Origin: Sipunculus nudus
Lineage: Eukaryota; Annelida; Sipuncula; Golfingiida; Sipunculidae
Assembly (NCBI GenBank): GCA_026874595.1
Contig: CM049315.1
Coordinates: forward strand, 8,864,664 to 8,928,663
Reading direction: 5' to 3'
Length of the DNA stretch: 64,000 nt
Position numbers and translations under genes: made by a program. Of this stretch, positions 2,101 to 60,900 are shown piece after piece (the first letter of the stretch is position 1; each line of letters opens with the position of its first letter). Below the pieces are notes generated by a model. It made no database searches and was not told where the DNA came from. It saw only the letters and a program-made list of their open reading frames with translations.

Positions 2101-2459
2101 AATAAAGAAAAAAATTTGATTAATTGAATAAAATATAGGTGGCACCAGCAGTCTGCAGAAACAGATGAAACACTCCATAATCAATATCCATGCAAAGAAT
2201 CATGCTGATCTCTGCATTAGTTGTTCAGTTACTTCAGCTTTTGTATCAAATTTTTCATTATTCTGAGGGATACTTCGGAGTCCTATAGCTTAAAGGATAT
2301 GGGTAACAGAGACCTAATTTCAGGTTTCCATGGAGACTTTTCATGAGTCTCCCTGTGTGTCAAGAATGAAGATGATAGGTCCAGTTGTTATGATTTGTGC
2401 CCTGTTAACAGATGTTCATACCTTTTAAGGTCTCAAAGATAGAGAAAAATTCATAAAAA

Positions 2460-18700: not shown

Positions 18701-21700
18701 AGGTTAAAGTCAATCTTAGCTCAGCTTAATCTTTACGCAAGGTTTAAGATACAACAGTAGTTTTAAACATTTTCCAAAATTAGCAGCTACATTCTTAATT
18801 AATAATAATAACAAGGGACCCATGGGTCACGGCGCTCAGCTGTTATATATGATAAAAAATATGATTTGGGAAAGAGGCACATGCTGGTTTTGTGTGGTAA
18901 TAAATATAAGCTTTATTATGAGTTGTTGGTGTTTAGCTTATGTATGATTTTGATAGTATCTTTTAAGACAGGGAAGAGGATTGATTTAATTTATTTTATT
19001 AACAAATGGAGTGCTATTGTCACACAGATTTTTACTTGGCCATATAACTTATAAGCAGCACATATAATAAAAGAGTTTAACTATTTATTAAAATTTAATA
19101 ACAAATATTGTGCCAATATAATTTTTATTAAAAAAATAATAAGAAAATCATACAATTTTTTAAAATAAAAAATAACTGAAATGATTATTGAAATAATATT
19201 TTAGAATATATTCATGAATGCATTCATGAATACATTTTGAAAGTATCTGCACTGGTATTCAAATACTTTCATTTTTACCTGAATTCCCATTCTTATGCAA
19301 TAATATTTTTTAATGCAGTAAATATTCATATTTGTATTCAAATACATTTGCAAAGCATTCGCACCATGTCTTGTATTTATTCAGTTTTTTCCAAACAATG
19401 ATGTTTAGAATCTAGAATATACAAAATTCACACATTTAAATAATGATCATAAGTACCTGGTTTTATGGCTTTTATTTATATTAAAAAAAAATAAATGTAA
19501 TATATTCACTTTGGACTACTTTCACATCAATCTACACACTAGACACAGTAGGAATCTAGATTAATATCATCAACTGCATCTTTGTCTATCATTAATTTCC
19601 TTCATATGATCCCTAATGATTAGTAATGAATAATATGATTTATATTTTTATCATTAAAATTTAACTGAAAAATACCACAGGTGACTGCATGGTGTTATTT
19701 GGAATAACATTGACATTGACATTCTATCCATCCATACAAGATTCTTATATCATCAGTAACAGTAATTTCCTATTACTCATCAACTAACAAATTCCTTTTC
19801 TATTAATTTTCCTTTGTTATTAAAAACCAATTAAAATTATTAATTTATTGTTTATTGTTATCTTGTTTTTCAAAACAACTACTAGATGAGTTGTGTTGGA
19901 CACCTGGATCAAATGTAGCTGGGCATTAGCTGCCTGGCTGCCCCAGTGTATGCTTCGCTCAAGCATGCATAATCTGATGAAAGGTCAACAAGGTCAACAT
20001 ACAGGTGACTGAAGAGGCCCTGGATTGAGCCTGGGTCTGACATGGTCTCATAAAAACATTATTAAAAGCTACAATATGTGGCCAATTTCTTTCAGCTTTC
20101 TAAATTAGAAAGATGAAATCCTTATGTGTGCATGATATGAAAATTATATCAACAGTGCTCTCAGGGAACAAACGTGCCATGGTCAAAGTTGGGCAAAATT
20201 TAAGGTACTAATTTTATATTTATACTAATAACGTATAAAATTTGAAAAATTCAGAACTAAATTTGGGTATTCAATTGAATCTTGATTAAATAATGTTACA
20301 TCCCTGACAAAAAATCTCTAGCTTCAGCAATCCTCTTGTTAAGAGAGTAAATATATTTCTTGATTTTTTAACAAGGCCTACAGGCCTAATGCGAACCTGT
20401 GCATTGGGAAATACACCAGGTATAATGCTTCAATGCTGGACCATTACTTTTCATGTATATGAACAATGCAAGTACTAAACAATTTGAATAAGAAACAATT
20501 ACACAAACTCTGCTGAAATTCTGGCATGGGTGCACAGAACACTAAAAAATTGTAGCTGGCACCACCAGTCTTGTATACAATGAAGCTATCAGAGATATAT
20601 ACATATGCCCAATTTCAGACTGATATATAAAACCCCTCCTGAGAAAAACGCAGGGACACACACTGTGCAAAAGTCATGGTAGGTGGCAACACCTGTCTTG
20701 TGAGCGAGAGAGCCATCAAAGACACAGACAGGTCATAATATTAGGCCAATACATCAAACTTACCTTGAGTCTGATGCATGGGGCTGACCAGGCTTAGCTG
20801 AGAAAGGCTGTTGCCCCGAGTGAACTGTGACAAATTGCTTGCTCAGGCTACTGCACTGAGTGAACTCATGACCTGCAACTGACTAGACTGAGTGAACTTT
20901 TGACCTGTACCTGGCTGCACTGAGTGAACTCTTGACCTGTTGCATAACCTGACACAGTTGGCAGTCTGCCAAAGCTATAAATAGAATGCAGCACCTGCAC
21001 TGAGTAAACTCCTGACCCATACCTGGCTGCACTGAGTGAACTCTTGACCTGTTGCCTAATCTGTCAACTTGACAGTTTCATCATTAAGCTGAAAGAGGCT
21101 AATATTAGGTTTTTTGCCCATAAAAAACAGGTCAATGTAGGTGGCACCACAAAATCTGCAATTTCAAATGTGAGACATGTGACCAACATTTGCACAATAC
21201 CTGGTAATGCTAGCTTCTGTCATTTCTGAGAGTACTATGTCAGTATGCTTACTTGGCCAAATGACTGTTCAAATTTATGTAACTCCACTAAAATTCATCA
21301 AATGCAAACCATTTAAACAAACTTGAGAGGGCTTGCCTCTGGGATCATTTATGTAAAATATTGAACAATTTGGCTGGACCGTCTACAAGAAGCTTTTCCC
21401 CTATAAAATCGAAGTAAATGCAGATAGCAAAAAAATAGGCTGAATCCCACAAAATTTGATATGTGACAGATAATTGCATAAAATCTGGGAATGGTAGCTC
21501 CTGCTATTGCTGAGAAATTATGGATTAATGTACAGATGACCAATGACCCCTGTACAAAACAAGGGACCCATGGGTCACGGCGCTCAGCTGATCATGATTG
21601 GACTATAAATGTTTCTCCACTGTGATACTATATCAAGTCGATAAAGCTTATGAATATCATGGACATGTTGGGCTATTATAAAGGAATTAAATGTAATATG

Positions 21701-24700
21701 TGAGTAAATGATAAATGAAATTACCTGACTGATGGATTAATAGAGTCAAATATAGTGGTTTTTTTTTTAATTATTTAGGAGGGGTTGAAAATTGTGATAT
21801 ATTTGAGCAAATATAAATGCAATGACAGCAGTAATAAGCAGTAGTAGAATGATGATAAGGCTATTTGTTGAAGGATCTAAAGTGTATGGTAGTCTGCAAG
21901 ATTTCAATTTGACAGATTTGATGTTATGATTAACTATGCTGATGAAGTGATTCATGAATTTGTGACTGTATGACACAATATCTCTTTAGTCTTGACAAGG
22001 TACATTATTGTGATGCCCACTATGTCTACATATTACACAATACTGACATAATTTCTGGCATGTACATAGGTACCTATGGACAAATAGTTATACAAAATAT
22101 TAAAGTATGAATATATCTGATTCATCTTGTTATTGCTTACTGAGGCTGACTTTGGGATGGGGTTCGGATAAGGGAAAAGTGAGGGCAGCACGAAGGTGGA
22201 TGTAGAAATATTCTATTGTAATGTTTTTCATTTATATAAGAATATGAAAAGCTAAGAGGAAAGGGGCCCTCCTACTTGGTTACAGTAAAGTTCTAAATAT
22301 ATGATTGCAATTTATACTCTGACAAGACTGTCATGAAGAAAAACAGTAAAAGTTTTGAGATACTGTGATGCATATGAAAATTTACAGATGGACAGGCAAG
22401 TTGACAGAATGGACTAATACCTATATTTCACTTTCAAGGGAATAATGCATTTAAGTTTATATATAATCCTATTTTTTTTAAGCATATCCACTTTTTCCAT
22501 TTAGAAGTTTATATCTGAATCATTCTTTTATTTACAGGTTTTACAAATTTTTAATAAAAAAAACTGAAAATATAAGTAAAAATATTAGAATTGTTGCAAA
22601 AGTTGCAATCATTATATATACAGAGTAAAAAACTGAAACTATAAGTTAAAAATTAGAATTGTTGCAAAAGTTGCAATCATCATATATCCAGAGTGTAGCT
22701 CATATTGGGTCATATTATGCATACACATATATTTCATTATTTTTAAATCATATATGTTTAAACTGAATTTAAAAGAAAATAATGCCACAACATGGCATCT
22801 ACAAGAATATTCCTTGAATCACTATTAAAAAGTTTTGCACATTGGAGTTTTCAGTACATGCTTAATTTTATTCACCAAAATAAAATAAAAGATTCAGTAA
22901 ATTTGATAAAATAAAACATCTTTTCAAATAAAGTAAACACACTGTTGGTTGAATGAGGGACAAACAATATGATTGTGCTAATTACTATCCCAGTTTTAAT
23001 TTATTACTGGAATTAATACTCAATTTCACACCTGGTGAAGTTTTTACTCCTCTGAAGTAAGGAATTACTTATCTCATGAACATCCACACTTTCATAGCAA
23101 TACACCACTTTGTGGACACAATTAAATGTACACTTTAATCACTGTAACCCTTGTGGTAAAATACAAAATCTAAAATGTAGCATAGCCTAGAATAAGAATG
23201 AATCAAATACAGAAAATAATAACATTCATCTAGTTTATGCACCTGCTGGGGGGGGGGGGGGAGGGAGTGCAGGGCAGAGGGGAAGCCTGCTTGTAGTGGC
23301 CAAGCTGACCCAAGGCAAGCTGCCTGGGGTGGGTTACATAATGCAAGTGAAGGCTGTACTACTAGGTGGGCTAGATGTAAACAACACTTGACATGGTGTA
23401 TGAAAACATGAATAAAAGCTATTCTTTCCAATCAATTTCTTTGAAATTTTAGATTTTAAAAGATTAAATCCTTATGTATATATGCTGTGAAAATTAAATC
23501 AACAGTGCCAAAGTTGGACAAAAATTTAAGGTATTGATTTTTTATTTATGCTAATAACTTGAAAAATTTGCAAAATTCAGATCTAATTTTGGGTAAACAC
23601 TTGAATCTTGATTAAATAAAGTTATATTCCTGAAAAAAGTCTCTAGGTTCAGCAATTCTCATGTTAGGTGAGTAAATATATTTCTAGATTTTTTTAAAAA
23701 TTGCATTATGTTTTGCCCAATAACTTCAAAATAATACCCAATACTGACCTAATTTTTGGTATGTTCGTAGAAAATGTATGAAAGAAAGTGAATACTAAAT
23801 ACAATCAAAAACATATCAGTGGTTTTGATATTAGGCAGCCTTGAAGTGTAACAATGGCTTTTTTTATGGAAAACGGGAGTTTTTTTTCCTTAACATCTCG
23901 AAGGAACGAAGTCCTAATGACCAAATTTTTTGTATGGTAGGAGATTTTGGGGACATCTAAAATTATGCCAACAGCCTGGGGAGCATAGAGATGTGCACTG
24001 AATGACCTACAGTCATCAAAATGGACTGCTTGACAATGTAAGGGAATACAACAAAAGCCTCCAAAAAAATTCAATAACTAGCCTAATTTTGCAGCTTTTA
24101 TTTTCAAATGTCGGATTTTAACAGATTAAATCCTTATGTATGCATGCTGTGAAAATTAAATCCACAGTACTAACAGGAAAAAAACGTGCCGTGGCCAAAG
24201 TTGGGCAAAATTTAAGGTACCAATTTTATATTTTTGGCAATATTTAAAAAATTTTACCAGATTTTGATCAAATTTTTGGTATACAATTTAATTTAGATAA
24301 ATTAAAGTTGTATTACTGGAAAAAAGTCCCTACCTTTAACACTTTTGGTCTTAAGTGACCAAATATCTTCCTGATTTTTTTACAAAGTCCATTATGTTTG
24401 GGCCCATAACATTTTTTAAATTATATAATACTGACTTAATATCTGGCATGTACATAGGAACTATATAGAGGAATATTTTTGGTAAATATGAAGAAAACCA
24501 GATAAGTAGTTTTGATATTAGGCTGTCCTGAAGTGTGAAAATAGATTTCTTATAAAAAATTGAGGTTTTTCCTTAATATCTCAAAGGAACGATGTCCTAA
24601 TGACCTAATTTTCGGCATGGTAGGAGATTTTGGGGACATCTAACTGTATGGCGAATTTCAGATTCGTAGGTTCAATGGTGTCGAAATGTGCCAGTCATAC

Positions 24701-27700
24701 AGACGGACATCCGGACGGACAGACAGACGAACGGACAATGGACCACAACTATAGCTCAGATGACTTATAGTCAGCTGAGCTAAAAATTATTATTATTATT
24801 AAAGTGATTATTGATATTTATTTTAACCTGTATCACTTTTAAAAATATTCCTGCGTGTAAGTGGCAATGTACTTGCTCTAAATACATAACCCCTGAAGGT
24901 GCAGATATATACATTTGTTTATACTTACAATGTGGAGGAAACTGAGCGGGGTGGCCAGGTTGAGGTCCCACTTAAGTTTGTCAAGGATGACAAGCTCCAT
25001 GCGACACACATCTGACACACTGCATCCACAGCCACTCTCCTCCACAAGTTCCGTGGTATTAGGGACAACCTGGAACATACCAACACACAGGTTAATATAC
25101 TGCTTACATTTTAAACACCACATGAAGAGACAGAAACTGCTCCTGGTCAATTATTTATAAGTGTGTGGGTCTGTACGATATCTGATGGAGTTTCATGGAT
25201 TTTGATCAAATATGTAAAATACATTGTTACTGAGCACAACTGAACATCTATAAATGATTGAATCCTGGTGTAGACCCATGGATGGGTGTTTTATGGGTTT
25301 TGGCAGCATTACCAATGGGATGAAATCGAACGCCCAATTTTGCAGCATGATTTTGACATCAATGAGAACAAACAAAGTTGTGTATAAAATTATATATACC
25401 TTTTTTTTAACATTATTTATTTAATATTGTTGTGTATATAATAAAGGGCAACACCATCATAATTTCTGATGGCTATGTTTCAATAAAAGTTTCCACTGAA
25501 AACATAGTATATTTCAAGGACAACAGAAAGCAATGTTAAACATTCCTGGGTACAATTTATTGCAGCATGCTATGTGTTTGTCCCCTTAACATATACTTTA
25601 TTAAATATTAGAAACAGGTCACAAACATATCTGAAATGGTAAAAAGGAGAAAACAAAATGGATGATGATGACAGGAGTAAGATTTCATGACCAGTTAGTT
25701 ATTCTTAAAAACTTCTGTGGTCCTTCCATTTGTGCTTTGCTTGAGCAACAAACAACAGAGCTATTGAATCTATAATGATTAGTAATTATGAAAATATATT
25801 CTGACATAGACAGATATATACACAACAACCTTACCTCATCTTCTTCCAGTGTTTTGGCCGCCAGATAGAGCGAGGCTATGCCAATACACCTTAAATACTT
25901 GGGGCGAGCCTGCAACAAAGATAAACAAGTTATTCATCAAATATCTTTATTCTGCCTACATTGCAAAGGTCTGCTTTATAGACCTGATAAGACAGACATT
26001 CTGAGTTCCTGACAGCCACTTGCAAAGAATTTTATCAGTAAATGCTATACTGATAAGCTCTTTACCACAGCTGCTTGCAGCATGTGACATTAACCTGCGC
26101 TAAAAATGTTAATGTATAGGTAAATTACTTGTGTTCATTCATGCTGTAACTAGAGGACCTGGTTTTTGTGACACAAATACAATTATGTCTCCCCTGACTA
26201 TGGGCCTCACTTTTTACAAATTTGAGGGGAAAAAATGGACCCTTTCAAAAGTTTGGTGTTACCTTAAATCCTGGATTTCTACAAATTTGAACTTGTATGA
26301 TGATTATCAAGGTAACCAATTAATAAACTGATCTGAGATTTTATTCTGCAGATTTGACCTTAAAAATCCAGGTGAAGGTCACCAGTTTTCAAGCTCTTCA
26401 AGGAACCTGATTTAAACAATTAGCGTTAAATTTTAGGAAAAAATATCTGATACTTCAAAATTTATGGTGTTCACCAAATTTTTTTATTTCACCCAATTTT
26501 ACCTGGATGTTAAAGGTCAAGGTCACAGTTTTTTTAACTTGTCTGAGATATTGGTAGAGCCAATTCACAAGTTGAATTTCATGAAAATATATCAAGTGGT
26601 TCAAAAGTTATAGCGTTCAAAATTAATTTCTATCCTGGGTGACTTGAACTTGAAGATGCAGGTCAAAGTCACAAGTTTTGGAGCTACTCCAGGAACTTGA
26701 TTAAAACATTTTGTGTTTCAAATTTGAGGAAAAAATACACGCTACTCCTAAAGTTATGAGTTTCACAAATAATTCGATTTCGGCCTATTTGACCTTGATG
26801 CTGAAGGTCAAGGTCACTGTTTTTTTTTAACTTGTCCAAGAGATTGGTAGAGACAATTCACAAGTTGAATTTCATGAAAATATATCAAGTGGTTCAAAAG
26901 TTATAGTGTTCAAAATTAATTTCAAAATTAATTTCTAAATTAATTTCTGACCTTGAAAATCCAGGTCAAGGTAACCAGTTTTGAGCTCCTCAAGGGACTT
27001 GATTAAAACAATTTGTGTTTCAAATTTGAGGAAAAAATATGCGCTTTAGTTATGGGTTTCTCAAATAATTCTGTTTTGGCCTATTTGACCATGATGCTCA
27101 CGCTTACTACGACAGACCAAAACACTATATATCCCCCCCCCCCATGGGGAGGTGAGACATTAATTCATGAAACACTTGTTGACCTGAATGTAGAAATAAA
27201 GGTCAATACAACCAGGGATAACTCAGTCTTAAAGGTTACATCAGACAAATATAACTCAAGTTTTAAAACCTTGTCATAAAATACATCCTTCAAACTTAAA
27301 AAAATCCCTTGTATTTACCAAAAAGGGGATATATGAATTTAAATATTTACCTGCAAAACCTGGCCTGTAAATGTTAGGAGCAGATCAGATATAATTTTAG
27401 AATTTTTTATTTTTATTAAATGTTTGGAGGAAAATCCAGATTACAATTAAAGTTTTATTCAAGCAAAATCAATTCACAGTTCAACAAATTGCATTATTTT
27501 CATAAAAAGATCCTTCACTTGCAAAGGTGCTGATCTATCATTCCAAAAGGAGAAATTACTGCTAAGCAGCATTTTGTCATGAATACTTGCAAATCAGTTG
27601 ACAGCTTGAAAATTATCTCAACATTACATTTAAGTACATATCAACTGCAATTTCAGTCTATCTTTTATTTAAAACATCACACTGGGAACTGCTTAGGTCA

Positions 27701-33700: not shown

Positions 33701-36700
33701 AAGTCAACACAGCATGCATTACCACTGGACTGAAATCACCAAAGCTGCTGATCTACTAGGTCTTTATTCCCTAATATGACCCCTCCCCCTCCCATTCTGA
33801 GGTTCCTAACAAACTGTTCACTGCCAGCAATCCAAAGTCACCCTTGATTAACATTTAACTACAAGTCCATTTAAGTATCATGGACAAAGCACAGTATAGC
33901 ACAAGTTTAACCAATCATTCATGGCCTCGGGAAATGGTAAAAATCAACCCAGAAAATGTAAAGCAGTGATGCATGTGACACACATGTGTGTGTGTAACTC
34001 AGGAGTACAAGAGTAAACCTGACAATTTAGTAACCTGATATAAAGTGAACAATCCCTGGGCAGAGATTCACAAAGTTTATTCACGGACAGGAGGCAGTAA
34101 ATAAATATATACCAGTAACCGACTGGTTTTTGTTATTGTGAGAGAGATGGAAAGGAAAATTACGATCTGAACTGGGTGTCTATAAATATGAAAAGTAAAG
34201 ATAAAATTTCTTACCTTCACAGTGCGAAGCATTCGATCTAATATGGCAACAGCTAGGTTAAAAGTTTCAGGGTAGAAGTGAAACTTGTTGCACAGAAATG
34301 CCAGCCAGGCCACAGTTTGATCCCGCTCATGTGGACCAATTTCTGCACCCTGAAATAGCAAAAAGGAGTTGTACAGCTGGATTTTTTTTTTTAAAAAGGG
34401 GGGATGAGGGAATATAAGATTTAAATCAAACTGAACATCGCTCAACACTGCATCAAATGTTTACAATCTAGCTGCAGAGGCTGAAGGATCATTCCTCATA
34501 TTTATGTACCAGACAAAACACCTACATGTATACAAATCAAATATATTATGAAGAACATTGTTTATAACACCTCCCTATATGGCTTTTTCTTCTTGTATGC
34601 TGGGATACGGACAATTATTTTATTATAAAAATCACCAAGTCCATGATACTTAAAAGACTCTCAGGATGATATAAAATACATTTTTTTAAAGGTTAAATAG
34701 TGCCTCTTATCATTACCAAACCAGGCAAACCATAAAGACAATTCCTATCAACAAGGGGCATTACCTAAGCCACATGTCAATGTGAATTCATTGCACAGTG
34801 TGAATGTTCTAGTATTAACAGTCCTATCAACAGGTACAGCCATGAGGGCCACAACTAGAATTAGTGTATTTTGCCACTCATGAGGCCTTTTTATAAACTT
34901 TAATCTGTTGATTTACCAATAATTTGCTTCTAAATGGTTCTGTAGTAAAAAGGTGAATGAGAAATGCTGAAGTTTACAATGCAGTACAAGGGGAGGAACT
35001 ATGTAACCACTCTGTACCTAAGTAGTATTAAGTATTCAGATCAGTGTTACTTATATCGTGGTGGTGGGGGGGGGGAATAAGCACAATGCAGACAATTTAA
35101 GCAGATATTCAGAGTGACACCACCCTTTTTTCCATATACTTATATATGAGTTATGACCCACATATATCACCACTGAAAATGAAGTTCCATGATGCATGAA
35201 CAGACCCTGATTTTGCTTCAGCCTGACGTAACAAAAATAAATCAACTGTACAATAACATAGTAAAACGTTCAAAATCTTAATGATATGTTTGTTATACAC
35301 AAGGATCCTTTATATGACACCATGCTTCAGATACAAAGAATGTAGTTCATAAAGGTTGAGCAAGAATCTGAATTAGACAGAGACTGTTAAGTCATAAATT
35401 TCTCAAATCATAAATTATCAATTAATATAAACTTATAAATAATGAGCACAATGCAGACAATTTAAGCAGATATTCAGAGTGACACCACCCTTTTTTTCCA
35501 TATACTTATATAAGAGTTATGACCTACATATATCCTCACTCACAATGAAGTTCCATGATGCATGAACAGACCCTGTTTTTGCTTCAGTTTGACGTAACAA
35601 AGTTAAATCAACTGTACAATAACATAATAAAACTCTCTAAATCTTAATGATATGTATTTTATACACAAGGATCTTTTATGTGACACTATGCTCCAGTTAT
35701 GTAGTTCATAAAGGATAAACAAGAATCTGAATGAGACCATACTGTTAAAGTCATAAATTTCACACAAGGGACCTATGGGTCACGACGCTCAGCTGTTATA
35801 TATGATAAAAAAATATTATTTAGAAATGAGGCACATGCTGGTTTTGTGTGGTAATAAATATAAGCTGTATTATGAGTTGTTATTTAGCTTATGTATGATT
35901 TGGATAGTACCTTTGGAGACAGGGAAGAGGATTGATTTCATTTACTTTATTTTATTAACAAATGGAGTACTACTGTCACACAGATTTTAACTTGGCCATA
36001 TAACTTATAAGCAGAACATATAATATAAGAGTTTAACTATTTATTAAAAAAATTACAAATATTGTCCCAAATATAATTTTTATTAAAAATAATAAGAGAA
36101 TCATATGATTTTTTAAAATGAAATATAACTGATATGATCATTAAAATAATATTAAAGAATATATTCATGAATGCATTCATGAATACATTTTGAAAGTATT
36201 TGCACAAGTATTCATATACTTTCATTTTTATCTGAATTCCCATTCTTTATGCAAGAAATTTTATAATGGAGTACATAATGATATTCGTATTTAAATACAA
36301 TTACAAAGTATTCGCACCATGTCTGGTATTTATTCAGTTTTCACCAAACAAAGATGTTGAGAATCCAGAATATACAAAATTCACACATTTAAATAATGAT
36401 CATAAGTACCTGGTTTTATGGCCTTTATTTATATTAAAAAATAACTGTAAAAAATTCATTTTGGACCAATTTCACATCAATGTACACACTAGACACAGTA
36501 GGAATCTAGATTAATATTATCAACTGCATCTTTGTCTATCATTAATTTCCTTCATATGATCCCTAATGATTAGTAATGAATAATATATTTTACTTCTTTA
36601 TCATTAAAATTGAACTGAAAAATGCCATAGGTGACTGCATGGTGTTATTTGGAATATGTGACATTCTACCCATCGATACAAGATTCTCATATCATCAGTA

Positions 36701-39700
36701 ACTGCAAGTTAATTTCCTGTTATTATAAACTAACAAATTCCTTTTCTATTTTTCTTTAATTTGTTATTAAAAACCAATAAAAATTTATTAATTTATTGTT
36801 TATTGTTATGTTGTTGGTTAAAACTACTAGATGAGTTGGGTTGGACACCTGGATCAACTGTGGCTAGCCATAAGCTGCCTGGATTCTCGCCTCAAGCGTG
36901 CATAATTTGATGAAAGGTCAACAAGGTCAACAAAGTGGTGACTCAAGAGGGGCTGGAGAGAGCCAAAGTCTGACAGGGTCTCATAAAAAACATTAATAAA
37001 AGATACGATTTTTGGCCAATTTCTTTCAGCTTTCTAAACTAAAAAGCTGAAATCCTTATGTGTGCATGATATGAAAATTATATCAACAGGGCTCACGGGA
37101 AACAAACGTGCCATGGTCACAGTTGGGCAAAATTTAAGGTACTAATTTTATATTTATGCTAATAACTTATAAAATTTGAAAAATTCAGAACTAATTTTGG
37201 GTATTCAATTGAATCTTGATTAAATAATGTTACATCCCTGACAAAAACAAGGGACCTATGGGTCACGACGCTCAGCTGTTATATATGATAAAAAAATATT
37301 ATTTAGAAATTAGGCACATGCTGGTTTTGTGTGGTAATAAATATAAGCTGTATTATGAGTTGTTGTTGTTTAGCTTATGTATGATTTTGATAGTACCTTT
37401 GGAGACAGGGAAGAGGATTGATTTCATTTATTTTATTAACAATTGAAGTACTATTGTCACACAGATTTTGACTTGGCCATATAACTTATAAGCAGAACAT
37501 ATAATATAAGAGTTTAACTATTTATTAAAAAAAATTACAAATATTGTCCCAAATATAATTTTTATTAAAAATAATAAGAGAATCATATGATTTTTTAAAA
37601 TGAAATATAACTGATATGATTATTAAAATAATATTAAAGAATAAATTCATGAATGCATTCATGAATACATTTTGAAAGTATTTGCACGAGTATTCATATA
37701 CTTTCATTTTTACCTGAATTCCCATTCTTTATGCAAGAAATTTTATAATGGAGTACATAATCATATTCGTATTTAAATACAATTACAAAGTATTCGCACC
37801 ATGTCTGGTATTTATTCAATTTTCACCAAACAATGATGTTGAGAATCCAGAATATACAAAATTCACACATTTAAATAATGATCATAAGTACCTGATTTTA
37901 TGGCTTTTATTTATATTAAAAAATAACTGTAAAAAATTCATTTTGGACTAATTTCACATCAATGTACACACTAGACACAGTAGGAATCTAGATTAATATT
38001 ATCAACTGCATCTTTGTCTATCATTAATTTCCTTCATACGATCCCTAATGATTAGTAATGAATAATATGATTTACTTCTTTATCATTAAAATTGAACTGA
38101 AAAATGCCATAGGTGACTGCATGGTGTTATTTGGAATATGTGACATTCTACCCATCGATACAAGATTCTCATATCATCAGTAACTGCAAGTTAATTTCCT
38201 GTTATTATAAACTAACAAATTCCTTTTCTATTTTTCTTTAATTTGTTATTAAAAACCAATAAAAATTTATTAATTTGTTGTTTATTGTTATGTTGTTGGT
38301 TAAAACTACTAGATGAGTTGGGTTGGACACCTGGATCAACTGTGGCTGGCCATAAGCTGCCTGGATTCCTGTATGCCTCGCCTCAAGCGTGCATAATTTG
38401 ATGAAAGGTCAACAAGGTCAACATACAGGTGACTCAAGAGGGGCTGGAGAGAGCCAAAGTCTGACAGGGTCTCATAAAAAACATTAATAAAAGATACGAT
38501 TTTTGGCCAATTTCTTTCAGCTTTCTAAACTAAAAAGCTGAAATCCTTATGTGTGCATGATATGAAAATTATATCAACAGTGCTCACGGGAAACAAACGT
38601 GCCATGGTCACAGTTGGGCAAAATTTAAGGTACTAATTTTATATTTATACTAATAACTTATAAAATTTTAAAAATTCAGATCTAATTTTGGGTATTCAAT
38701 TGAATCTTGATTAAATAATGTTACATCCCTGACAAAAAAATCTCTAGCAATGCCCTTGTTAAGGGAGTAAATATATTTCTTGATTTTTTACAAAGTGCAT
38801 TATGTTTGGGCCCATAACTTAAAACAATTACGCAATACTGACATCATTCTGGGATGTGCATAGAGAATGAAAAATATGCATATTGTTTATGATTAAAGTC
38901 AGATCAGTGGTTTTGATATTAGGCAGTCTTGAAGTGTAACAATGGGTTTTTAATGGAAAAATGAAGTTTTTCATTAATATCTCGAAGGTATTAAGTCCAA
39001 GTGACCAAATTCTTGGCATGGTAGGGGATTTTGGAGACATCTAACTGTATGCTGAATTTAAGGAACTTAGAGCTGAAGCTGGGGAGCTGAGCTTTTGCAA
39101 ACTGCATAACACTAGCTTGATGTAAACAATATGTTACAAGGTGCTTGAAAACTTGATTAAAATCTACAGTTTTTGATCAACTGGTTTCAAATTTTTGGTG
39201 TTAACAGTTGAAATGCTGACAAAAACATGCTGTGAAAATTAAATCCACAGTACTTACAGGAAAAAAACGTGCCATGGTCAAAGTTGGGCAAAATTTAAGG
39301 TACCAATTTTTTATTTTTATTAATATTTTAAAAAATTTAAAAGATTTTCATCTAAGCTTGGGTATACAATTTAATTTTGATTAATTAAAGTTATATTACT
39401 GGAAAAAAGGTCCACAGCTTTAACATTTTTTGTGTTAAGTGATCAAATATCTTTCCTTATTTTTTTCAAATTGCATTATGTTTGGGCCCAGAACTATTTT
39501 AAATTAAATAATACAGACATAATTTCTGGCATGTAGATAGGAACTATATAGAGGAATATTTATGGTAAATATGAGGAAAAACAGATGAGTGGTTTTGATA
39601 TTAGGCAGTCCTAAAGTGTGAAAATAGGTTTTTAATAAAAAATTGAGGTTTTTCCTTAATTTCTCAAAGGAACGAAGTCGCAAAGACCCAGTTTTTGGCT

Positions 39701-42700
39701 TGGTAGGAGATCTTGGGGACATCTAACATTATGCCGAATTTTGGATTCCTAGGTCTTACGGTTTCAAAACGTGCCACATCTACGGACGGACGGACGGACG
39801 GACGGACAGACGGACGGACGACGGACAATGGACCACGACTATAGCTCAGATGACTTATAGTCAGCTGAGCTAAAAATCTCTAGCTTCAGCAATGCCCTTG
39901 TTAAGAGAGTAAATATATTTCTTGATTTTTTACAAAGTGCATTATGTTTGGGCCCATAACTTAAAACAATTACGCAATACTGACATCATTCTGGCATGTG
40001 CAAAGAGAATGAAAAATATGTATATTATTTATGATTAAAGTCAGATCAGTGGTTTTGATATTTGGCAGTCTTGAAGTGAAACAATGCCTTTTTAATGGAA
40101 AAATGAAGTTTTTCATTAATATCTCGAAGGTATTAAGTCCTAGTGACCAAATTCTTGGCATGGTAGGGGATTTTTGAGACATCTAACTGTACGCCGAATT
40201 TAAGGAACTTAGAGCTGAAGCTGGGGAGCTGAGCTCTAGCAAACTGCATAACACTAGCTTGATGTAAACAATATGTTACATGGTGCTTGAAAACTTGATT
40301 AAAATCTACAGTTTTTGATCAACTGGTTTCAAATTTTTGGTGTTAACAGTTGAAATGCTAACAAAAACATGCTGTGAAAATTAAATCCACAGTACTTACA
40401 GTAAAAAAAACGTGCCATGGTCAAAGTTGGGCAAAATTTAAGGTACCAATTTTTTATTTTTATTAATATTTTAAAAATTTAAAAGATTTTCATCTAATTT
40501 TGGGTATACAATTTAATTTTGATTAATTAAAGTTATATTACTGGAATAAAGGTCCATAGCTTTAACGTTTTTTGTGTTAAGTGATCAAATATCTTTCCTA
40601 ATTTTTTACAAAATGCATCATGTTTGGGCCCATAACTTTTTTAAATTGAATAATACAGACATAATTTCCGGCATGTATATAGGAACTATATAGAGAAATA
40701 TTTATGGTAAATATGAGGAAAAACAGATAAGTGGTTTTGATATTAGGCAGTCCTGAAGTGTGAAAATAGGTTTTAAATAAAAAATTGAGGTTTTTCCTTA
40801 ATTTCTCAAAGGAACGAAGTTGCAAAGATCCAGTTTTCGGCTTGGTAGGAGATCTTGGGGACATCTAACATTATGCTGAATTTTGGATTCCTAGGTCTGG
40901 ACTAATACCTTTATTTCACATTCAAGGGAATAATACATTTAAGTTTATATATTATTTAAGCATATCCACTTTTTCCATTAAAATAGTTTTTATCTGATTA
41001 ATTTTTTTTATTTACAAGTTTTATAAATTTGTATTAAAAAAACACTGAAAATATACGTTAAAATATTAGAATTCTTAGTTGCAATCATAATACATCCAGA
41101 GTGTAGCTCGTATTGAGTCATATTATGCATACACATATATTTTTATTATTTTTGAATCACAAATTTTTAAACTGAATTTAAAAGAAAATAATGCCACAAC
41201 ATGGCATCTACAAGATTATTCCTTGAATCACTATTAAAAAGTTTTGCACATTGGAGTTTTCAGTACATGCTTAATCTTATTCACCAAAATAAAATAAGAT
41301 TCTGTAAATTTGGTAAAATAAAAACATCTTTTCAAATAAAGTATACACACTGTTGGTTGAATGAGGGACAAACAATATCATTATGCTAATTACAATCTAA
41401 GCTTTAATATATTCCTGGAATTAATAGTCAATTTCACACCTTGTGAAGTTTTTACTCTTCTCAAGGAAGGAATTACTTATCTGATGAATATCCACACTTT
41501 CATAGCAATACACCACTTTGTGGACACAATTAAATGTGCACTTTAATCATTGTAACCCTGGTGGTAAATACAAAATCTAAAATGTAGCATAGCCAAGAAT
41601 AAAATGAAATACAGAAAATTATAACATTCATCTAGTTAATGCATCATCTAGGGGGGGGAGGGTGTGCAGGGCAGAGATGAAGCCTGCTTGTAGTGGCCCA
41701 GCTGAGCCAAGACAAGCTGCCTGGGGTGGGTTACATAATGCAAATGAAGGCTTTACTAATGAAGGTGGGCTAGATGTAAACAACACTTGACATGGTGTAT
41801 GAAAACTTGAATAAAAGCTACTCTTTTCAATCAATTCCTTTGAAATTTCAGATTTTAAAAGATTAAATCCTTATGTATATATGCTGTGAAAATTAAATCA
41901 ACAGTGCTTACAGAAAAAAAAATGCCATTGCCAAAGTTGGACAAAATTTAGGGTATTGATTTTTTATTTAAGCTAATAACTTGAAAAATTTGCCAAATTC
42001 AGATCTAATTTTGGGTAAACAATCGAATCTTGATTAAATAAAGTTATATTCCTGACAAAAAGTCTCCAGCTTCAGCAATTCTCATCTAAGGTGAGTAAAT
42101 ATATTTCTTGATTTTTAAAAAAGTGCATTATGTTTGGGCCCATAACTTAAAAAAAATACACAATACTGACATCATTTCTGGCATGTGCATAGCGAATGAA
42201 TAGAAAAATATGTATATTATATATGATCAAAGTCAGATCAGTGGTTTTGATATGAGGCAGTCTTGAAGTGTAACAATGGGTTTTTAATGGAAAAATGAAG
42301 TTTTTCATTGATATCTCGAAGGAATTAAGTCCTAGTGACGTAATTCTTGGCATGGTAGGGGATTTTTGAGAAATCCAACTGTATGCCAAATTTAAGGAAC
42401 TTAGAGCTGAAGCTTGGGAGCTGAACTCTAGCAAACTGCATAACACTAGCAATATGTGACATGGTGCTTGAAAACTTGAATAAAATCTACAGTTTTTGAT
42501 CAACTGGTTTCAAATTTTTGGTGTTAACAGTTGAAATGCTCACAAAAACATGCTGTGAAAATTAAATCCACAGCAGTTACAGCAAAAAAATTTAAGGTAC
42601 CAATTTTTTATTTTTGCTAATATTTTAAAAAATTTAAAAGATTTTGATCTTATTTTGGGTATACAATTTAATTTTGATTAATAAAAGTAATATTACTGGA

Positions 42701-48430: not shown

Positions 48431-50114
48431 TTGTATCCGCCAAAACAGAGTTTTGCGGATACTATGTTTTCAGCTGGTCGCCGCCGCCGCCGCCGCGTAG
48501 GTGTCCGGAGAACTCCTCCGTAACCGCTGGGCGGAATTTTCCGAAACCCGGGATTATGTTCGGGTCACATGTGAACTGCTGCGCCCCGATTTTGTTTTGA
48601 CCTCTGACCTTTCCTCTGCGCTCTGCGTCCGTTTGTGCGTCTGTTTCCACACATAAACCCACATATCTCGGGAACCGTTTGACTGATCAGGAAAATTTTT
48701 TTGCACAAATGTAGCCCTCAGAGAGCTTTATAACATACACCAAAAATGGTGGCGCCACCTGCAACCATGTTTGCACAGTGTCCATCTGTTCGTCTGCCTT
48801 GGGTTAAAATCACTCATATCTCTGCAGTGACTTGACTAATTCACCTGAAATTCGGCATGCGCAAACATCCTGGATAGCTTTTCTGATTTTATGACAGGTG
48901 GCGCCACCTACATTCACGTTGACGCTGCAGACATCCAAGCTCATATCTCGGGAACCGTTTGACCGATCAGGAAAATTCTTTTGCACAAATGTAGCCCTTG
49001 GAGAGCTTTATAACATACACCAAAAATGGTGGCGCCACCTGCAACCATGTTTGCACAGTGTCCATCTGTTCGTCTGCCTTGGGTTAAAATCACTCATATC
49101 TCTGCAGTGACTTGACTAATTCACCTGAAATTTGGCATGCGTATACATCCTGGATAGCTTATCTGATTTTATGACAGGTGGCGCCACCTACATTCACGTT
49201 TACGCTGCAGACATCCAAGCTCATATCTCGGGAACCGTTTGACCGATCAGGAAAATTCTTTTGCACAAATGTAGCCCTTGGAGAGCTTTATAACAAACAC
49301 CAAAAATGGTGCCGCTACCTGCAACCATGTTTGTACAGTGTCCATCTGTTTGTCTGCCTTGGGTTAAAATCACTCATATCTCTGCAGTGACTTGACTAAT
49401 TCACCTGAAATTTGGCATGCGTATACATCCTGGATAGCTTTTCTGATTTTATGACAGGTGGCGCCACCTACATTTATGTTTACGCTGCAGACATCCAAGC
49501 TCATATCTCAGGAACCGTTTGATTGATCAGGAAAATTTTTTTGCACAAATGTAGCCCTTGGAGAGCTTTATAACATACACAAAAAATGGTGGCGCCACCT
49601 GCAACCATGTTTGCACAGTGTCCAGCTGTTCGTCTGCCTTGGGTTAAAATCACTCATATCTCTGCAGTGGTTTGACTAATTCACCTGAAATTCTGCATGC
49701 TTATACATCCTGGATAGCTTTTCTGATTTTATGACAGGTGGCGCCACCTACAATCAAGTTTACGCTGCAGACATCCAAGCTCATATCTAGGGAACTGTTT
49801 GACCAATTGGGCCAAAATTTTGCATGTGTATAGTTCTCACAAAGCTCTTTATCATACGCTTAACTGGTGGCGCCACCTGCAACCCTTTTTTGCACAGCGT
49901 CCATCTGTTTGTCTGCCAAGGGCAAAAATCACTCATATACAATATAGTGGTTTGACCTATCTGCCTTAAATTTTGCATATGTATACAACTTGGACGGCTT
50001 TCTACATACACAATTTGGCTGCAGACATCCATGCTGATATGCAACACTTCACCCGTTCCACTCTGATTTAGGCGGATACAAGTAGTCGCTTGTCGACTAC
50101 CCGTATTCTAGTTA
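48431..50114. mobile_element. Type C tandem-core element, upstream of CCNG
   Basis: The left end is the hairpin TATCCGCC-AAAAC-AGA-GTTTT-GCGGATA; the right end has gcggataca and the hairpin GTAGTCG-CTTGT-CGACTAC. The core holds 280-bp units starting at 48898, 49178, 49458 and 49738, each with two GGTGGCGCCACC palindromes. ORFs across the units are by-products of the repeat. Confidence 0.75.
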
Positions 50115-51980: not shown

Positions 51981-54900
51981 GTAATTTATTTTATTGTTTC
52001 CCCAGACAAAGTCGGAATACTATGGTTTCACGACGGTCCCGCCGCCGCAGAAAAACCTTGTTAGCGGGATAACTCAAAAAATATTTCACTGATCTTTTTC
52101 AAACTTTACATTTGTATAGATATAGGTAAGGGGACGAAGCCTATCTAAAATGGGGTCATGACCTATGCTAGGAGAGTGATCTTGACCTTGAATAGGTCCA
52201 TTTTTCCTGAAAATAACACAAGTTCTTAAATATCTCAAGTGAGCTTGCATGGACTAGTCCAAAAATCAAGGTGACCGAAGATCTTGGATAGCCTTGTGAT
52301 ATACCGGAAACTGGTGGCGCCACCTATTATCCTTTGCTTGTTTTTACGCCTTTTAATACCCCCATAATTGCCACTTGACAGTACTGTAAGCAATTTAAGT
52401 AAAAAACTAATGGACCCATTTCTTTCATATTATGCACATGTAGAGAGATGGGTTATGGGATGAGGTCTATTTACATTTGGGTCATGACCTTTACCATGAG
52501 AGTGGCCTTGACCTATAATGTGTCCATAATTGGTGAAAATCACACACCTCTTATGATATCTCCAGGGTTGATAGCCATATGGATTTCAAACGTGACTTAT
52601 GTATGGCCCACCACTACAGTAAGAACCCTATAGGTTCTAGGGTCATGAGGTCAAAGGTCAAGGTCACTGGATTCGCATCTTAAAAGATACTGTGGATGCA
52701 TTTTAGGCCAAACTTTCATCCCAGGTCTTCCATCTTGAATATATAGCTCACTTGCCAATAGTGGATGATCCATATCAAATTTGGGGTCACAAGGTCAAAG
52801 GTCAAGGCCACAGGAGCTGTCTGTCAAAAAATTAGTTTCTGGATGATAATTCCTGCTTTTATTGATGTATTGATTTCAAACTTGACTTATATATGTCCCA
52901 TTGAAAAAGCAAGACTCCTATTGATTTTGGGGTCATGAGGTCAAAGGTCAAAGTCACAGGAAACATCTTTAAAAAGATTGTGGATGCATTTTCAGCCAAA
53001 CAATTCATCTCAGACCTTTCATCTTGCACATATATTTCATCTGCCAATAGAGGAAGACCCCTATCAATTTTGAGGTCAAAGGTCAAGGTCACAGGAGCCA
53101 TCTGTCCAAAAATTAGTTTCTGGATGATAATTCCTGCTTTTATTGATTTATGGATTTCAAACTTGACTTGTATATGACCCATTGGACAAGCAAGACCAGA
53201 ATTGATTTTGGGGTCATGAGGTCAAAGGTCAAGGTCACAGGACACATCTTTAAAAAGATTGTTGATGCATTTTCAGCCAAACAATTCATCTCAGATCTTT
53301 TATCTTGCACATATAGTTCACCTGCCAAGAGAGGAAGAACCCTATCAATTTTGAGGTCAAAGGTGAAGGTCACAGGAGCCATCTGTCCAAAAAATAGTTT
53401 CTGGATGATAAATCCTTCTTTTATTGATGTATAGATTTCAAACTTGACTTGTATATGTCCCATTGGAAAAGCAAGAATTGAATTGATTTTGGGGTCATGA
53501 GGTCAAAGGTCAGGGTCACAGGACACATCTTTAAAAAGATTGTGGATGCATTTTCATCTCAGACATTTCATCTTGCACATACAGTTCCCCTGCCAATAGA
53601 GGAAGACGCCTGTCAATTGTGAGGTTAAAGGTGAAGGTAACAGGAGCCATCTGTCCAAAAATTAGTTCCCGAAATGATAATTCAAGCTTGGATTAATATA
53701 TGGATTTCAGACCTGACATATATGGCCCATCAATAAATCTAGACCTCTATTGATTTATTTATAAAAGTGGATGATCTGATGATCAATATCAATTTTGAGG
53801 TCAAAGGTCAAGGCCACAGGAGCAGTCTGTCAAAAAATTGGTTTCTGGATGATAATTCCTGCTTTTATTGATTTATTGATTTCAAACTTGACTTATATAT
53901 GTCCCATTGAAAAAGCAAGACCCCAATTGATTTTGGGGTCATGAGGTCAAAGGTCAAGGTCACAGGACCAACATGTTCAAAAAGATGTGGATTGATAGGT
54001 GGAAGAAACAATAATTGCTTGCCAAGTGTCAGTATATGCTGCTAAAAACGGGGGCCTATTCTTAAGGGGGGGGGGGTATGTCTGGGGATACTCTGGCACC
54101 TGCGGTGCCAAGAAATGTCTAGTTAAAATTAAATTGATATAAAATTGTCATTAGACCTATCAGTTGTATCATTAAGTTAACATTTTTGTTATTCATGGAA
54201 AATGTATTCCTTCTGACTTGTTATTTCATTTGAAAGTCTATAAATTGCTGTCAACTTAAAGCCCAATTTATACAGTTTTGCCTTCATATTCAGTTTAGAT
54301 CAAAATTGACGAATGCATTAAGATGCAGATGTTTTAAATAGGAAATTTAGCAATTCAAGTATCTTTTTGATTCATGCAGCAATTATTGTTTGAATGGTAA
54401 AAGAAGGTATTATTCACTGTTTGCATTTTGCCATCTTGAATTAAGCGATATATGTTGTGAATATCATTAGATTACTCTTATTCTTTCAGGCCCAAGCATT
54501 GTTGTGGAAAAGCCAAGCATATCAGAAAATTGGTGCAGCCTTACAGAGAGTCAGGTTTTATCAACCAAACTTCCAGAACCTTGCAACCTCAGACTGTGTA
54601 AGTATATATAATGCTTATCACAATATATTTAGAGGGCATGGGACAGCTTGAGAATCTATTTGATATACAGAATTTTGATATAAACTTCAAGGCATTTTGA
54701 AGATATATCTCACAACTACAGATAATCTGTGCGACTTATAATGTGAACAAAGTGCAATCCATCTGACCAGTGGTGTAGTTCCATACTGGTATTCAGACGT
54801 GGCCTTGCGAAACAAGGAAGGTTCCATCCTTGTAGTTTCATATATGATTCCAGCTTTGTCAGAGAATCAAAATTATGACTACTATAGGTAACATGTTACA

Positions 54901-57900
54901 TGTATTAACTGAGTTTGTTTTCTCTGTTGGTTCAGGATGAAGACTTGATTGGGCCCCTGCACCGGGATGCAGCTGTGAACAACCTCAGGTTTCTGAATGT
55001 GTTCTATGGCTTCAGCCCCAAGTCCTTCTCCCTGGCGGTCAATTTTCTTGACAGGCTGGTGGGCCGTGTCAGGGTAAGTTTAATATTTAACAGCTGTATG
55101 TGTGTCTTTAATGTCCACTCCTTTTAGAGATTACAAAACTGCTACAACCTGTGACTAGTGCAATGTGTTCCATTGATTTTAGTTCTGAATCATTGTATTC
55201 ATTTTTAGACTTATGGATATTGGTACAAACTTTTTAAAAAAATGTAATTAAGTCAAAAAAGACTGATAGAATAAAGTTCAAGGATGCAGGGCATGTCCAT
55301 TTATTTATTTTTTACTTGCAGACCCACCCAAAGTACTTGTCGTGTATGGCAATCAGCTGCTATTATATTGCCATCAAGACTCAGGAAGAGGATGTGGTAA
55401 GTCTATATATTCAAAATAATTGTGTAGAATCAAGAATGGTTACAGTTTCTTAATATAATTACAAATTTTAGTATAACATTTTTGCTGTAGTAAATTTGTC
55501 AGAACCCTCAGAAGAATGTTTGCTTTTGCTTGTTGAAACCTGAATGGCCATATTTGCAGACACAAGTATGTGCTATTTTAAACATTATCTGGTGTGTGAG
55601 TAAGTGAGATGTGTGATAATATGTAACATCTCTGTTCAGGACATGATAGGTGATATGCATCATCTTTCAAATGAAAACTTACTCATGTCTGCAGGAAGGG
55701 CTATTTGGTTTTGTTGTTAGAATGATGTTTCAGGGTCTTCAGGTGTGAGATTATCAGTGTTAATTATCTATGTTGCAGTTCATTCCAAGTGCCAAAGAGC
55801 TGGTGACCATAAGCCAGTGTGGGTGTTCGGTGAGTGACTTGCTGCGGATGGAGGGGTTGGTACTGGAGAAGCTGCAGTGGCAGATTCAGGCTGTGACACC
55901 CCTGGACTTTTTGTACCTGTTTGTGGAGGCCCACGCTGGCCTGGGACCAAAGCTGACTGATGGGAGTGTGCTGACTGCTGCTGTTAACAAGCTTGATGTG
56001 CTCATGTGTCACCATGAGTTTGCAAAGTATAGGGTGTGTACACATATTGTTTAAATATAATATCAAACCAATCTGTAAAATCCTGAAGTCTGATGACCTT
56101 CACACCAACTTAACAGATCTGTTGCTGGCACTAATGTTATCAAAATTTACAGGGACTTTTTGGCACAAGGATATGACATAATGTTTATACATTGCAGTGA
56201 TAACGCAAATATTTGGCGCAAGTCAGATTAGCTGCTGATGTACACTATTTCTTATTACTTGGTCTTATGGAAGGATTGTATTATGGTATCACATTGGTAT
56301 GGAAAGCAATCTTCCGTGACCTTTGATTTTGCCATGATCACAGATTTTACCAGTTCAGAATATCACCTGCGTTTGATTTTTGGTAAAATCCCTACATATT
56401 TAGTGAGGTCAGCCCCAAACTATGGTGTTCCCATGGGAACTTGAAAGGATTGAGTTAATTCTGATTAAGAGTAAACTCCCTCAATATTTGCCAATTAAGT
56501 ATCTCAACTGAATCGGAATTTATTTAAAGGGGTTAGAGATTGCAAGACATAATATGTTGCTGTCATGCCAGGAATTTAATGGTTTTGATGAAACTCACTA
56601 TAATTTCACCAATACAGAATCTCACCTGCATTTGATTCTGGGCAATATTTGCACATTAATGCAGTCGGAGGTCGCAAGACTATGACCTTGCAAATTGTGC
56701 ACTTGTGATGTTCTTGTGGACCTAAATTGACCAAACCACCACCACCCATTTGTTCTGCCCCTTTCACCTACCAGTAATTGTGCTAATGAAACCAACAAAA
56801 TGCTCCAACACAGGCCTTCTATGCCTGTGGTTGCAAGAGCTGTTTATAAGACATTGGCGATGTCATAAACACATCACAAAGGTTGGTCGCATATCATGTC
56901 GCACTGAGTAATGTCATCATCTACAATTGCTATATATATATTTCTGTTCTGCAGTGATGAATATATTGCAATCATTATGACGTGTTTTGCCATATTTTTT
57001 TATTGTCTTGCACAAATTTCGTGCAAGGTAAGACATTGTATCCACCAAAACTTAGTTTTGCAGATAGTATGTTTTTGATCGGGTTCCGCCATCGCCGTTT
57101 TCATTTCGAGAACTCCTCTGAGACTACTGGACTGATTTTTCTGAAACTTGCACCAATTTTCAGGTCACATGTGAACTGGTGCCTAACCAAATAACCTCTG
57201 ATCTTTCTTCTCTGCCCAACATCCATTTGTGTGTCTGTTTCCACACATAAACCCACATATCTCGGGAACAGTTTGACCGATCAGGAAAAAGATTTTGTAC
57301 AAATGTAGCCCTTGGATAGCCTTATTACATACACAAAAAATGGTGGCGCCACCTGGAAAACCATGTTTGAACAGTGTCCATCTGTTCGTATGCGTTGGAT
57401 TAAAATCACTCCTATCTCTGCAGTGGTTTGACTAATTTTTATAAACCACTGGGTTTTATACTGTTATTGATAAAAGCAGCTTAACACAAAGTAAACCACA
57501 GACCACCTTATTGGCATTACATCAGAAAACGTGCAATCTCAAGAAATGACACACCATTGTATCAGTTCATGATAAACCCACTGACCCCTGCTACTAACTA
57601 CCAGACACTAGATCTTTGACCAAGGTTTATTGATATCAATGGCTGGGGACAAAACATGTCTGTTTCCACACATAAACCCACATATCTCGGGAACAGTTTG
57701 ACCGATCAGGAAAAAGATTTTGTACAAATGTAGCCCTTGGATAGCCTTATTACATACACAAAAAATGGTGGCGCCACCTGGAAAACCATGTTTGAACAGT
57801 GTCCATCTGTTCGTATGCGTTGGATTAAAATCACTCCTATCTCTGCAGTGGTTTGACTAACTCACCTGAAATTCGGCATACATATCCATCCTGGATAGCT

Positions 57901-60900
57901 GTCTTTATTTTTTTAAGTGGCGCCACCTACATTCACGTCCACGCTGCAGACATCCATGCTTAAATCTCTGGACTGGTTTGACGTATCTTCCTGAAGATTA
58001 ACATGTGTATAGATCTCACATAGCTCTTTATTATACGGAAAACTGGTGGTGCCACCTGCAACCATTTTTGCACAGTGTTCTTTTTGTCTGCTGTGGGATA
58101 AAATCATTCATACCTCGGCAGTGGTTTGACATATCTGCCTAAAATTGTGCAGGTTTATACATCCTGGACAGCTTTCTGGATTTTGTGGTAGGTGACACAA
58201 CCTACATACACATTTCGGCTGCAGACATCCATGCTAATATGTAACACACCTTACTCTATTTCCCCTGCAGACATCCAAGCTCATATCTCAGGAACCGTTT
58301 GACCGATTGGGCCAAAATTTTGCATGTGTATAGATCTCACATAGCTCTTTATCATACACAAAACTGGAGGGGCCACCTGCAACCATTTTTGCAAAGCATC
58401 CGTCTGTTTGTCTGCCGTGGGCAAAAATCACTCATACCTCAGTAGAGGTTTGACTTATCTGCCTAAAATTTTGCATATGTATACAACTTGGACAGTTTTC
58501 TGGATTTTGTGGTAGGTGGCGCAACCTACATACACATTTCGGCTGCAGACATCCATGCTAATATGTAACACACATCGCACTATTTCCCCTTGCCACTCAA
58601 TCCATGCCTCACTTCACCCGATTTTGGTGGATACACGTAGTTACTTGTTGACTACCCGTATCCTAGTTGACTTGGTGGTCAGTGGAATAGCTCCTGCAAC
58701 CTTGGCCTAGAACTTTTTATGCTGTCTACTTTGTATTGAAAAAATTTCCCAGAAAACATACTGACACAGGTACTGGTTCAGACAAGTGTTCTGTTTTGTG
58801 GAGTCGCCCAAATTATGCAAATTTGAGCTTGCCAGGTGATTGACTGTTTACATGGCCAATGGTAACTTAATTGGTTGCTCGCAACTGCTTTGCTCATGAT
58901 TTATCATTGGATGAATATGCGATTAAGGTCACATAAAGTTCATGGTTTGGTCAATTGTAAATTTGGATGAGGTTGGTTTCCAGAAATGGATTGGTTTCAA
59001 TTATTTTACAGCATGTGGCATGTTGAAAGCATTATTGGATCATTCATGAGGTCATTTGCTGTTTTGTAAAGTTTCATTGATTGTATTTCTTGGATAATTT
59101 TGAGAATGTGAGGTGTTAATGGAAATGATTAAATTCTGAGTCAGCATATAAATTTTTTTTTTTTTTAATTTTAATTTTAATGTACCTTGTAACTTTTTGT
59201 ATGTGTTACAACATGATGGCTTATTAGCCAATTATTTCAGTGGTTATATTGTGGGTATTACAAGTCATGCTTGTTTCATAGAGATCAGGTTCAAAAATAT
59301 AAGATTTGTTCCTATTTAGCTATTGTTTTCATTTATTCTCTTTGAGATTTCAAGTATTTGGACCAAAAATTGTAAGAAAGAGGATAACATGGAAAATCAC
59401 CTAAAATTTGAGAGTACTTTATTAATAGTTAAACCTGCAGGGTTTTGTTCACAATAAGGTTGTTGTTGTCTTGTTGGTCTAAAGGCCAGACATGTTTTGT
59501 CCCCAGCCATTGATATCAATAAACCTTGGTCAAAGATCTAGTGTCTGGTAGTTAATAGCAGGGGTCAGTGGGTTTATCATGAACTGATACAATGGTGTGT
59601 CATTTCTTGAGATTGCACGTTTTCTGATGTAATGCCAATAAGGTGGTCTGTGGTTTACTTTGTGTTAAGCTGCTTTTATCAATAACAGTATAAAACCCAG
59701 TGGTTTATAAAAATGAAGGCCCATTCTTGCAGTGATCTTTGTCATGTTTATCTGAAGTTGTTTATTGTCCAGTTTCTTCATGCTGGACAGTTTGCTCAAA
59801 TTGGACAGTTTCCTTAAATTGGGGACATATGTTTTGTTTCATATATGATGTACATTTTAAAGGGAGATCTATTTCTGTCTTATTTATTACTCTGTTTTTC
59901 AGGCATTAATCCTTTTCATGTCTGATACATTGTATTTATGCTATTTTTTTTTTCAGAGCATGTAAATTATATTTGACTCTACATTTAGCAAGGGTTATCA
60001 TTTTCAGCCATATATAAGTGTTCACAAGCTATTTGAATAATCGTTTAAAGGATTACAATGAAATATGACAAAAATTGATTGTTGAAATATCTCTTAGAAA
60101 ATATCTATGCAAATTTCAAAAGCAAATGTCACTGGAATGGGCATTTTAAAGGTTTAACAATATTTTTTACTTCAAGAGGTAACTGATTTCATTATGTGAT
60201 GTCACACACAGTGTGCTGTTGTTGAAAGATGGCCTGGTAGGTCCAGCTGACAGCATGAAGATAAGTTCATTTTTATGGCAGTGTAAATGTGATTCAGACT
60301 AGGAACAGAATTAAACATATACAGTTTGTGTTTTAAGACCCACTTTTGTTATTATTAATATTACTTTGTTTCAGGCGGAGACCCTTGCCTTGGCATTGCT
60401 CAGCCGTGTTCTGGAGGAGATGAATCTGACCAGTAATAATGATATTTTCTCCACTGTCTGTGAACTGCAGTACTATTGCCAGGTAAGTTTGAGTATTATT
60501 CTGTTACTTCTTCATAAATTAAATTTCAGCAGGAACTTTTCGTATTATGCTGTGTGTGCATTTGTTAGTGTTTAATTAATAGAATGTAGCTCATGTGTAA
60601 GGGACTCTGTGATAAGGTTTTAAATTGGACACCAGTTTTACTTCAGTTTCCATTTACACATCATCAGGACATCTTCATACAAATCTTATTAGATTATTTT
60701 CTTCATTTTCCTTCACCATGATTTTCAAAGCTACTTTGTTTATATTTATTTACAAAGAAATACTTGTAACATTTATGACCTGGACATAATATTGGGTTGG
60801 ATGAGTGTATTATAAAAGATTATCCGGTATAGGCAGTAATAAACAGACATGGAGTTTCCATTGGCATTTGGGGTTGTGAATCATAAAACTAAGATGTTTA

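Follow-up and report, generated by a model that had tools for sequence, protein, structure and literature searches.

Rearrangements in which a copied segment is inverted, or in which direct repeats arise without loss of sequence, are described at very different sizes; the papers cited here are represented by excerpts. Short-range template switches of great apes copy the reverse complement of a sequence before returning to the original strand, with a median length of 12 nt and a maximum of 128 (PMC7954356). Small inverted triplications, which are linked to FEN1/Rad27, follow a DUP/IN/DUP order with median lengths of 148/160/148 bp, a dominant junction of 6 nt and an inverted fragment that stems from the duplicated locus with a median spacer of about 30 bp (PMC13334657). 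In FoSTeS/MMBIR-type complex rearrangements, long templated insertions (376, 815 and 13,357 bp) and microhomology of more than 4 bp have been attributed to iterative template switching, some junctions sharing just 0 to 2 bp (PMC5120786), and in yeast there is support for switching from the leading to the lagging strand where short inverted repeats occur (PMC10766183). Local two-jumps, in which two local segments each gain one copy and two inverted junctions come to lie on one derivative chromosome, have been published from cancer genomes. Finally, fill-in at staggered breaks yields tandem duplications, i.e. exact direct repeats without loss whose copies are adjacent or separated by short filler (PMC8355091, PMC5730883).

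The locus presented here lies in a 64-kb window, by which the whole analysed stretch of Sipunculus nudus DNA (64,000 nucleotides) is meant, and its features are collected in the table below. Two direct copies of a 204-nt segment are identical in 204/204 positions at a spacing of 425, and their identity stops exactly there, with 0 nt of further match to the left or to the right. Between them lies an inverted copy of a downstream segment: 57435-57662 matches the reverse complement of 59487-59714 in 227/228 nt, with 1,824 nt separating the two arms, and the sole mismatch (57594/59555) is a substitution outside any homopolymer. A preceding sequence-only reading had thus placed both the direct repeat and the inverted copy correctly, and it was also right that the space between the repeats is an inverted copy of 59487-59714. 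The length of 228 nt that it gave to this space has to be corrected, since the insert proper comprises 221 nt and the 228-nt arm overlaps the direct repeats by 1 nt on the left and by 6 nt on the right, which are precisely the one base and the six bases (TGTCTG) that it had named as shared at the junctions. The source starts 1,627 nt past the end of the second repeat copy (57860 to 59487) without overlap and is retained at its own place; hence the change is a copy and not a cut.

Table. Features of the scar, its host repeat and its surroundings (positions within the window).
Feature	Position	Strand	Basis
Direct repeat, first copy; part of a dispersed repeat family	57232-57435	+	204/204 identity to 57657-57860; family matches
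Left junction, 1 nt (A), common to direct repeat and source	57435	.	Extents of the 228-nt arm and the 204-nt repeat
Inverted copy, 221 nt (templated insert)	57436-57656	-	Reverse complement of the source, mismatch 57594; two assembly matches listed
Right junction, 6 nt (TGTCTG), common to source and direct repeat	57657-57662	.	Overlap of arm and direct repeat; chance ~0.002
Direct repeat, second copy	57657-57860	+	Identity to first copy
Source (template) of the inverted copy	59487-59714	+	Inverted-repeat match; no further match among those listed for the assembly
9-bp stem CAGTGGTTT/AAACCACTG over the left junction	57421-57451	+	Folding and match statistics; suggestive only
Dispersed repeat copy hit by the event, internal units ~324 bp	57035-58668 (approximate span)	+	Self-comparison and family matches
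Cyclin_N, clearly above cut-off	34083-34460	-	Pfam
Cyclin_N, at cut-off	55764-56051	+	Pfam
Cyclin_N, below cut-off	54909-55124	+	Pfam
Nested direct duplication pairs, examples	1-2106 with 37765-39876; 2456-3534 with 21556-22633; 35764-37247 with 37247-38738		Window self-comparison

Among the described systems, the local two-jump shares with this scar the copy gain in both segments and the two inverted junctions, local and on one chromosome (both within 57435-57662, the source being 59487-59714), whereas the present case comes from the assembly of a non-cancer genome and concerns segments of about 200 bp at a distance of some 1.85 kb. The rearrangements of FoSTeS/MMBIR type resemble it in copy gain, in an inverted and long templated insertion, and perhaps in the pairing of one junction of more than 4 nt microhomology with a near-blunt one (here 6 nt and 1 nt), but the clinical examples excerpted from PMC5120786 are far larger and the scar has only two junctions. 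With small inverted triplications (PMC13334657) it has the DUP/IN/DUP order in common, at 204/221/204, as well as a 6-nt junction, albeit at one side; its inverted fragment, in contrast, does not come from the duplicated locus, and because the source is non-overlapping and far beyond the second copy, the scar is not classed with them. The reverse-complement copying and return of great-ape template switches is likewise found here, but with about 221 nt taken from about 1.85 kb away. Staggered-break duplications agree in the exact direct repeat without loss and differ in that a 221-nt inverted insert separates the copies here. The scar is a good, young and small representative of a known kind, probably a copying error, and young enough for every junction base to remain readable, and its size falls between short-range template switches and clinical rearrangements, a range that is thinly covered in the literature as far as these excerpts represent it.

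Self-comparison of the window at thresholds of at least 35 bp and at least 90% identity listed 45 repeat pairs, 44 of them direct and a single one, the present one, inverted. In 20 other 10-kb pieces of the genome, 74 direct pairs were found, many of them from one satellite piece, together with 0 inverted pairs at thresholds of 40 bp and 97% and 0 dup-inv-dup structures; the detector used for the latter reported exactly one structure when run on the window, namely the one described here. These pieces cover little of a genome of 1.43 Gb and give no rate, and the window was chosen because the structure had already been noticed in it. Taken together, the self-comparison, the scan of the 20 pieces and the detector run rule out a chance repeat. 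The satellite piece (L037:1-10000, contig C9) consists throughout of a repeat with a period of about 129 bp, the units being about 98% alike.

When the 221-nt insert was searched against the whole assembly, 2 matches were listed (from 2 first-look candidates), the copy and its source; this search skips very common words as well as withheld stretches and is in that respect strong but not absolute. As far as it reaches, the insert is not a dispersed repeat. This bears on a reading that the flanking direct repeats might invite, namely that a mobile element or a processed transcript inserted here and duplicated a 204-bp target site: with two matches listed in the assembly the insert does not behave as a member of a dispersed family, and it ends with source sequence at both sides without an added tail. 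Moreover, 204 bp is very long for a target-site duplication. The insert search and the missing tail led to rejection of this extremely improbable explanation.

The 204-nt segment itself, on the other hand, belongs to a dispersed repeat, with at least 41 matches listed in the whole-assembly search (2,787 first-look candidates, 40 of them scored), 2 of the 41 being the window itself. Since the event fell inside such a repeat, the other copies in the genome act as an outgroup. The best 24 other places (L005-L028), which cover 25/39 of the other listed matches as L023 holds two, were aligned to a script-made empty site consisting of the left flank, one 204-nt segment and the right flank. All 24 best-matching family copies run through both junctions in a single alignment without insert or second copy, at identities of 80.2 to 87.9% and with 4 to 15 gap positions; both junctions are passed by at least 20 nt in 23/24 of them, and L018 extends 19 nt beyond the right one. 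For L005-L008 the single arrangement was also seen when the flanks were aligned separately. Given that 24/24 examined family copies carry the single arrangement, the locus gained 425 bp, and the pre-event state, as reconstructed from the family, is one 204-bp segment without insert or second copy, in line with the expectation of the sequence-only reading that the ancestral state lacks about 425 bp. The family copies hence polarise the change, from which the presence of a 425-bp-shorter allele today does not follow. More generally, small two-jump scars can be found and polarised within one assembly, without relatives, where copies of a repeat family provide the pre-event state.

Internally the host repeat has units of about 324 bp, and it carries a GGTGGCGCCACC palindrome. 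Slippage between these units was considered and rejected, as the two 204-nt copies show no difference and what lies between them is foreign to the element, while the internal units are just 74 to 88% alike.

Divergence within the scar amounts to 1 difference in 425 compared positions (221 of the insert and 204 of the repeat), i.e. 0.24% with 95% limits of 0.006 to 1.3%, which marks the scar as young and bears out the youth formerly deduced from its near-identity. The age would be about 0.4 million years (0.01 to 2.2) at 3e-9 per site per year, or about 0.12 million years (0.003 to 0.66) at 1e-8, both rates being assumptions, and conversion between the copies would lower the apparent age. The same figures weigh on a two-step origin, in which a 204-bp tandem duplication would have been followed by insertion of an inverted copy at its internal junction. 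Each step is known on its own, but the insert sits exactly between the copies without loss, which calls for a coincidence in place, and both sets of copies are near-identical (0/204 and 1/228 differences), which calls for another one in time; such a succession is very improbable. Hardly less improbable is an artefact of assembly or reads: the basis of the analysis is assembled sequence rather than reads, yet a fold-back read error would be expected to duplicate what lies next to it rather than to reach a segment about 1.85 kb off and then return, and the difference between copy and source, a substitution outside a homopolymer, would likewise be unexpected for an error of this type.

Product, source, junctions and the arrangement of the family copies are direct observations, from which we infer a single event behind both junctions, its replicative origin and the enzymes involved. 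We consider it fairly probable that one replicative event with two template switches, of the FoSTeS/MMBIR type, made the scar. While running through the dispersed repeat, synthesis would have abandoned its template where the 204-bp segment ends on one side and primed anew on the opposite strand, at a distance of about 1.85 kb. There it would have copied 222 to 228 nt of the source backwards before going back to the opposite end of the segment, whose 204 nt would then have been copied once more. In pre-event coordinates the two jumps span 1,854 nt and 1,830 nt. This account explains most simply why both places gained a copy, why the inverted insert exceeds 200 nt and why one junction has more than 4 nt in common. 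If synthesis ran rightward, it left at the 1-nt junction and came back at TGTCTG; if it ran leftward, it left at TGTCTG and came back at the 1-nt junction. Since the two directions yield identical sequence, the direction of copying is undecidable. Accordingly, of the template-jump scenario put forward earlier, the single compound copy-and-paste event is supported, while its stated direction and its choice of a replication error over staggered-break repair are not established, mirror-image synthesis and break repair giving the same product. The polymorphism and the large hairpin suggested along with it are conjectural.

The junctions speak for serial template switching to unequal degrees. For a random junction, 6 or more shared nt, as at TGTCTG, have a probability of about 0.002, whereas the single nt of the left junction (P ~0.47) is uninformative and counts against the proposal rather than for it; the junction identities named at the outset were in both cases accurate. 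Matches of 6 nt are common when the search extends to 20 nt around two random points, about 30% of 20,000 such pairs having one; this also tells against template switching and makes the microhomology argument hang on the exact position of TGTCTG. The right junction offers a second 6-mer equal in length to TGTCTG.

A staggered double-strand break, with opposite-strand nicks 204 bp apart, filled-in overhangs and an end that copies 221 nt in inverted orientation from the nearby source before joining, would leave the same sequence as serial template switching and is, as the main rival to it, a possible, if doubtful, origin. Fill-in at such breaks makes tandem duplications (PMC8355091, PMC5730883), and the 1-nt left junction resembles end-joining. 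The overhangs would, however, measure 204 nt, compared with induced overhangs as small as 43 bp in the excerpts, where no upper limit appears, and local inverted templated insertions are mostly shorter than 14 bp and reach up to about 150 bp in the excerpt of PMC11724301, less than the 221 nt found here.

No sign of a replication fork is seen at the locus, which counts against template switching, and the folds of the breakpoint stretches are ordinary with one exception. Five of the six stretches folded are matched by 26, 61, 131, 91 and 107 of 200 shuffles, respectively, while the derived left junction is exceptional in that 3/200 shuffles fold as well. This fold led to a 9-bp match, CAGTGGTTT, which occurs at 57421, 57846 and 59698 and adjoins both left-junction breakpoints in the same orientation. 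Before the event, its 9 bp were present in direct orientation both at the end of the 204-bp segment and at that of the source; in the product it forms a hairpin stem with AAACCACTG. Among 20,000 random point pairs 0.64% reach 9, and with the repeat end held fixed 32/5,200 positions do so, neighbouring positions not being independent. The match is a suggestive lead only, its chance of about 0.6% being stated before correction for two junctions, two orientations and post hoc choice.

A more specific version of the template-switching proposal, offered tentatively and judged rather unlikely, regards the scar as a heritable small two-jump: a lagging-strand flap or fork mispriming, such as is linked to loss of FEN1/Rad27, would have copied an Okazaki- or nucleosome-sized piece across the same fork about 1.85 kb away. 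The copied segments are similar in length (204 versus 221 to 228 nt), as are the jumps in span (1,854 versus 1,830 nt), and the strands may have been brought into contact by the 9-bp match next to the left junction. If true, the FEN1/Rad27-type reading would connect small inverted triplications, at 200 bp, with two-jumps of kilobase to megabase size.

As to the gene setting, protein comparison revealed cyclin-like exon matches on the + strand at 54924-55076, 55316-55405 and 55770-55919, upstream of the scar, and Pfam Cyclin_N matched 4/10 of the stretches submitted, one clearly above the curated cut-off, one at it and two below. On the + strand, low-stringency protein comparison, motif search and Pfam yielded no downstream cyclin exon, the best low-stringency protein matches being mostly translated repeat sequence. 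The placement "within CCNG intron 5" is therefore not confirmed as regards the intron, its number and the letter G, since no downstream coding exon was found; the label G presumably suits this cyclin-like gene. The insertion probably lies in an intron of the gene or beyond it, and the two 228-nt arms might fold back on each other in the transcript.

Elsewhere in the window, positions 1-43150 contain direct duplications that are nested, measure 0.2 to 2 kb and are 90 to 97% identical, and cyclin-like stretches on the minus strand of this part lie at 24884-25150 and 34083-34460. This part is a locally duplicated region beside a second cyclin-like gene. Two more tandem arrays occupy 52578-53756, with a period of about 281 bp, and 48662-50001, with a period of about 280 bp.
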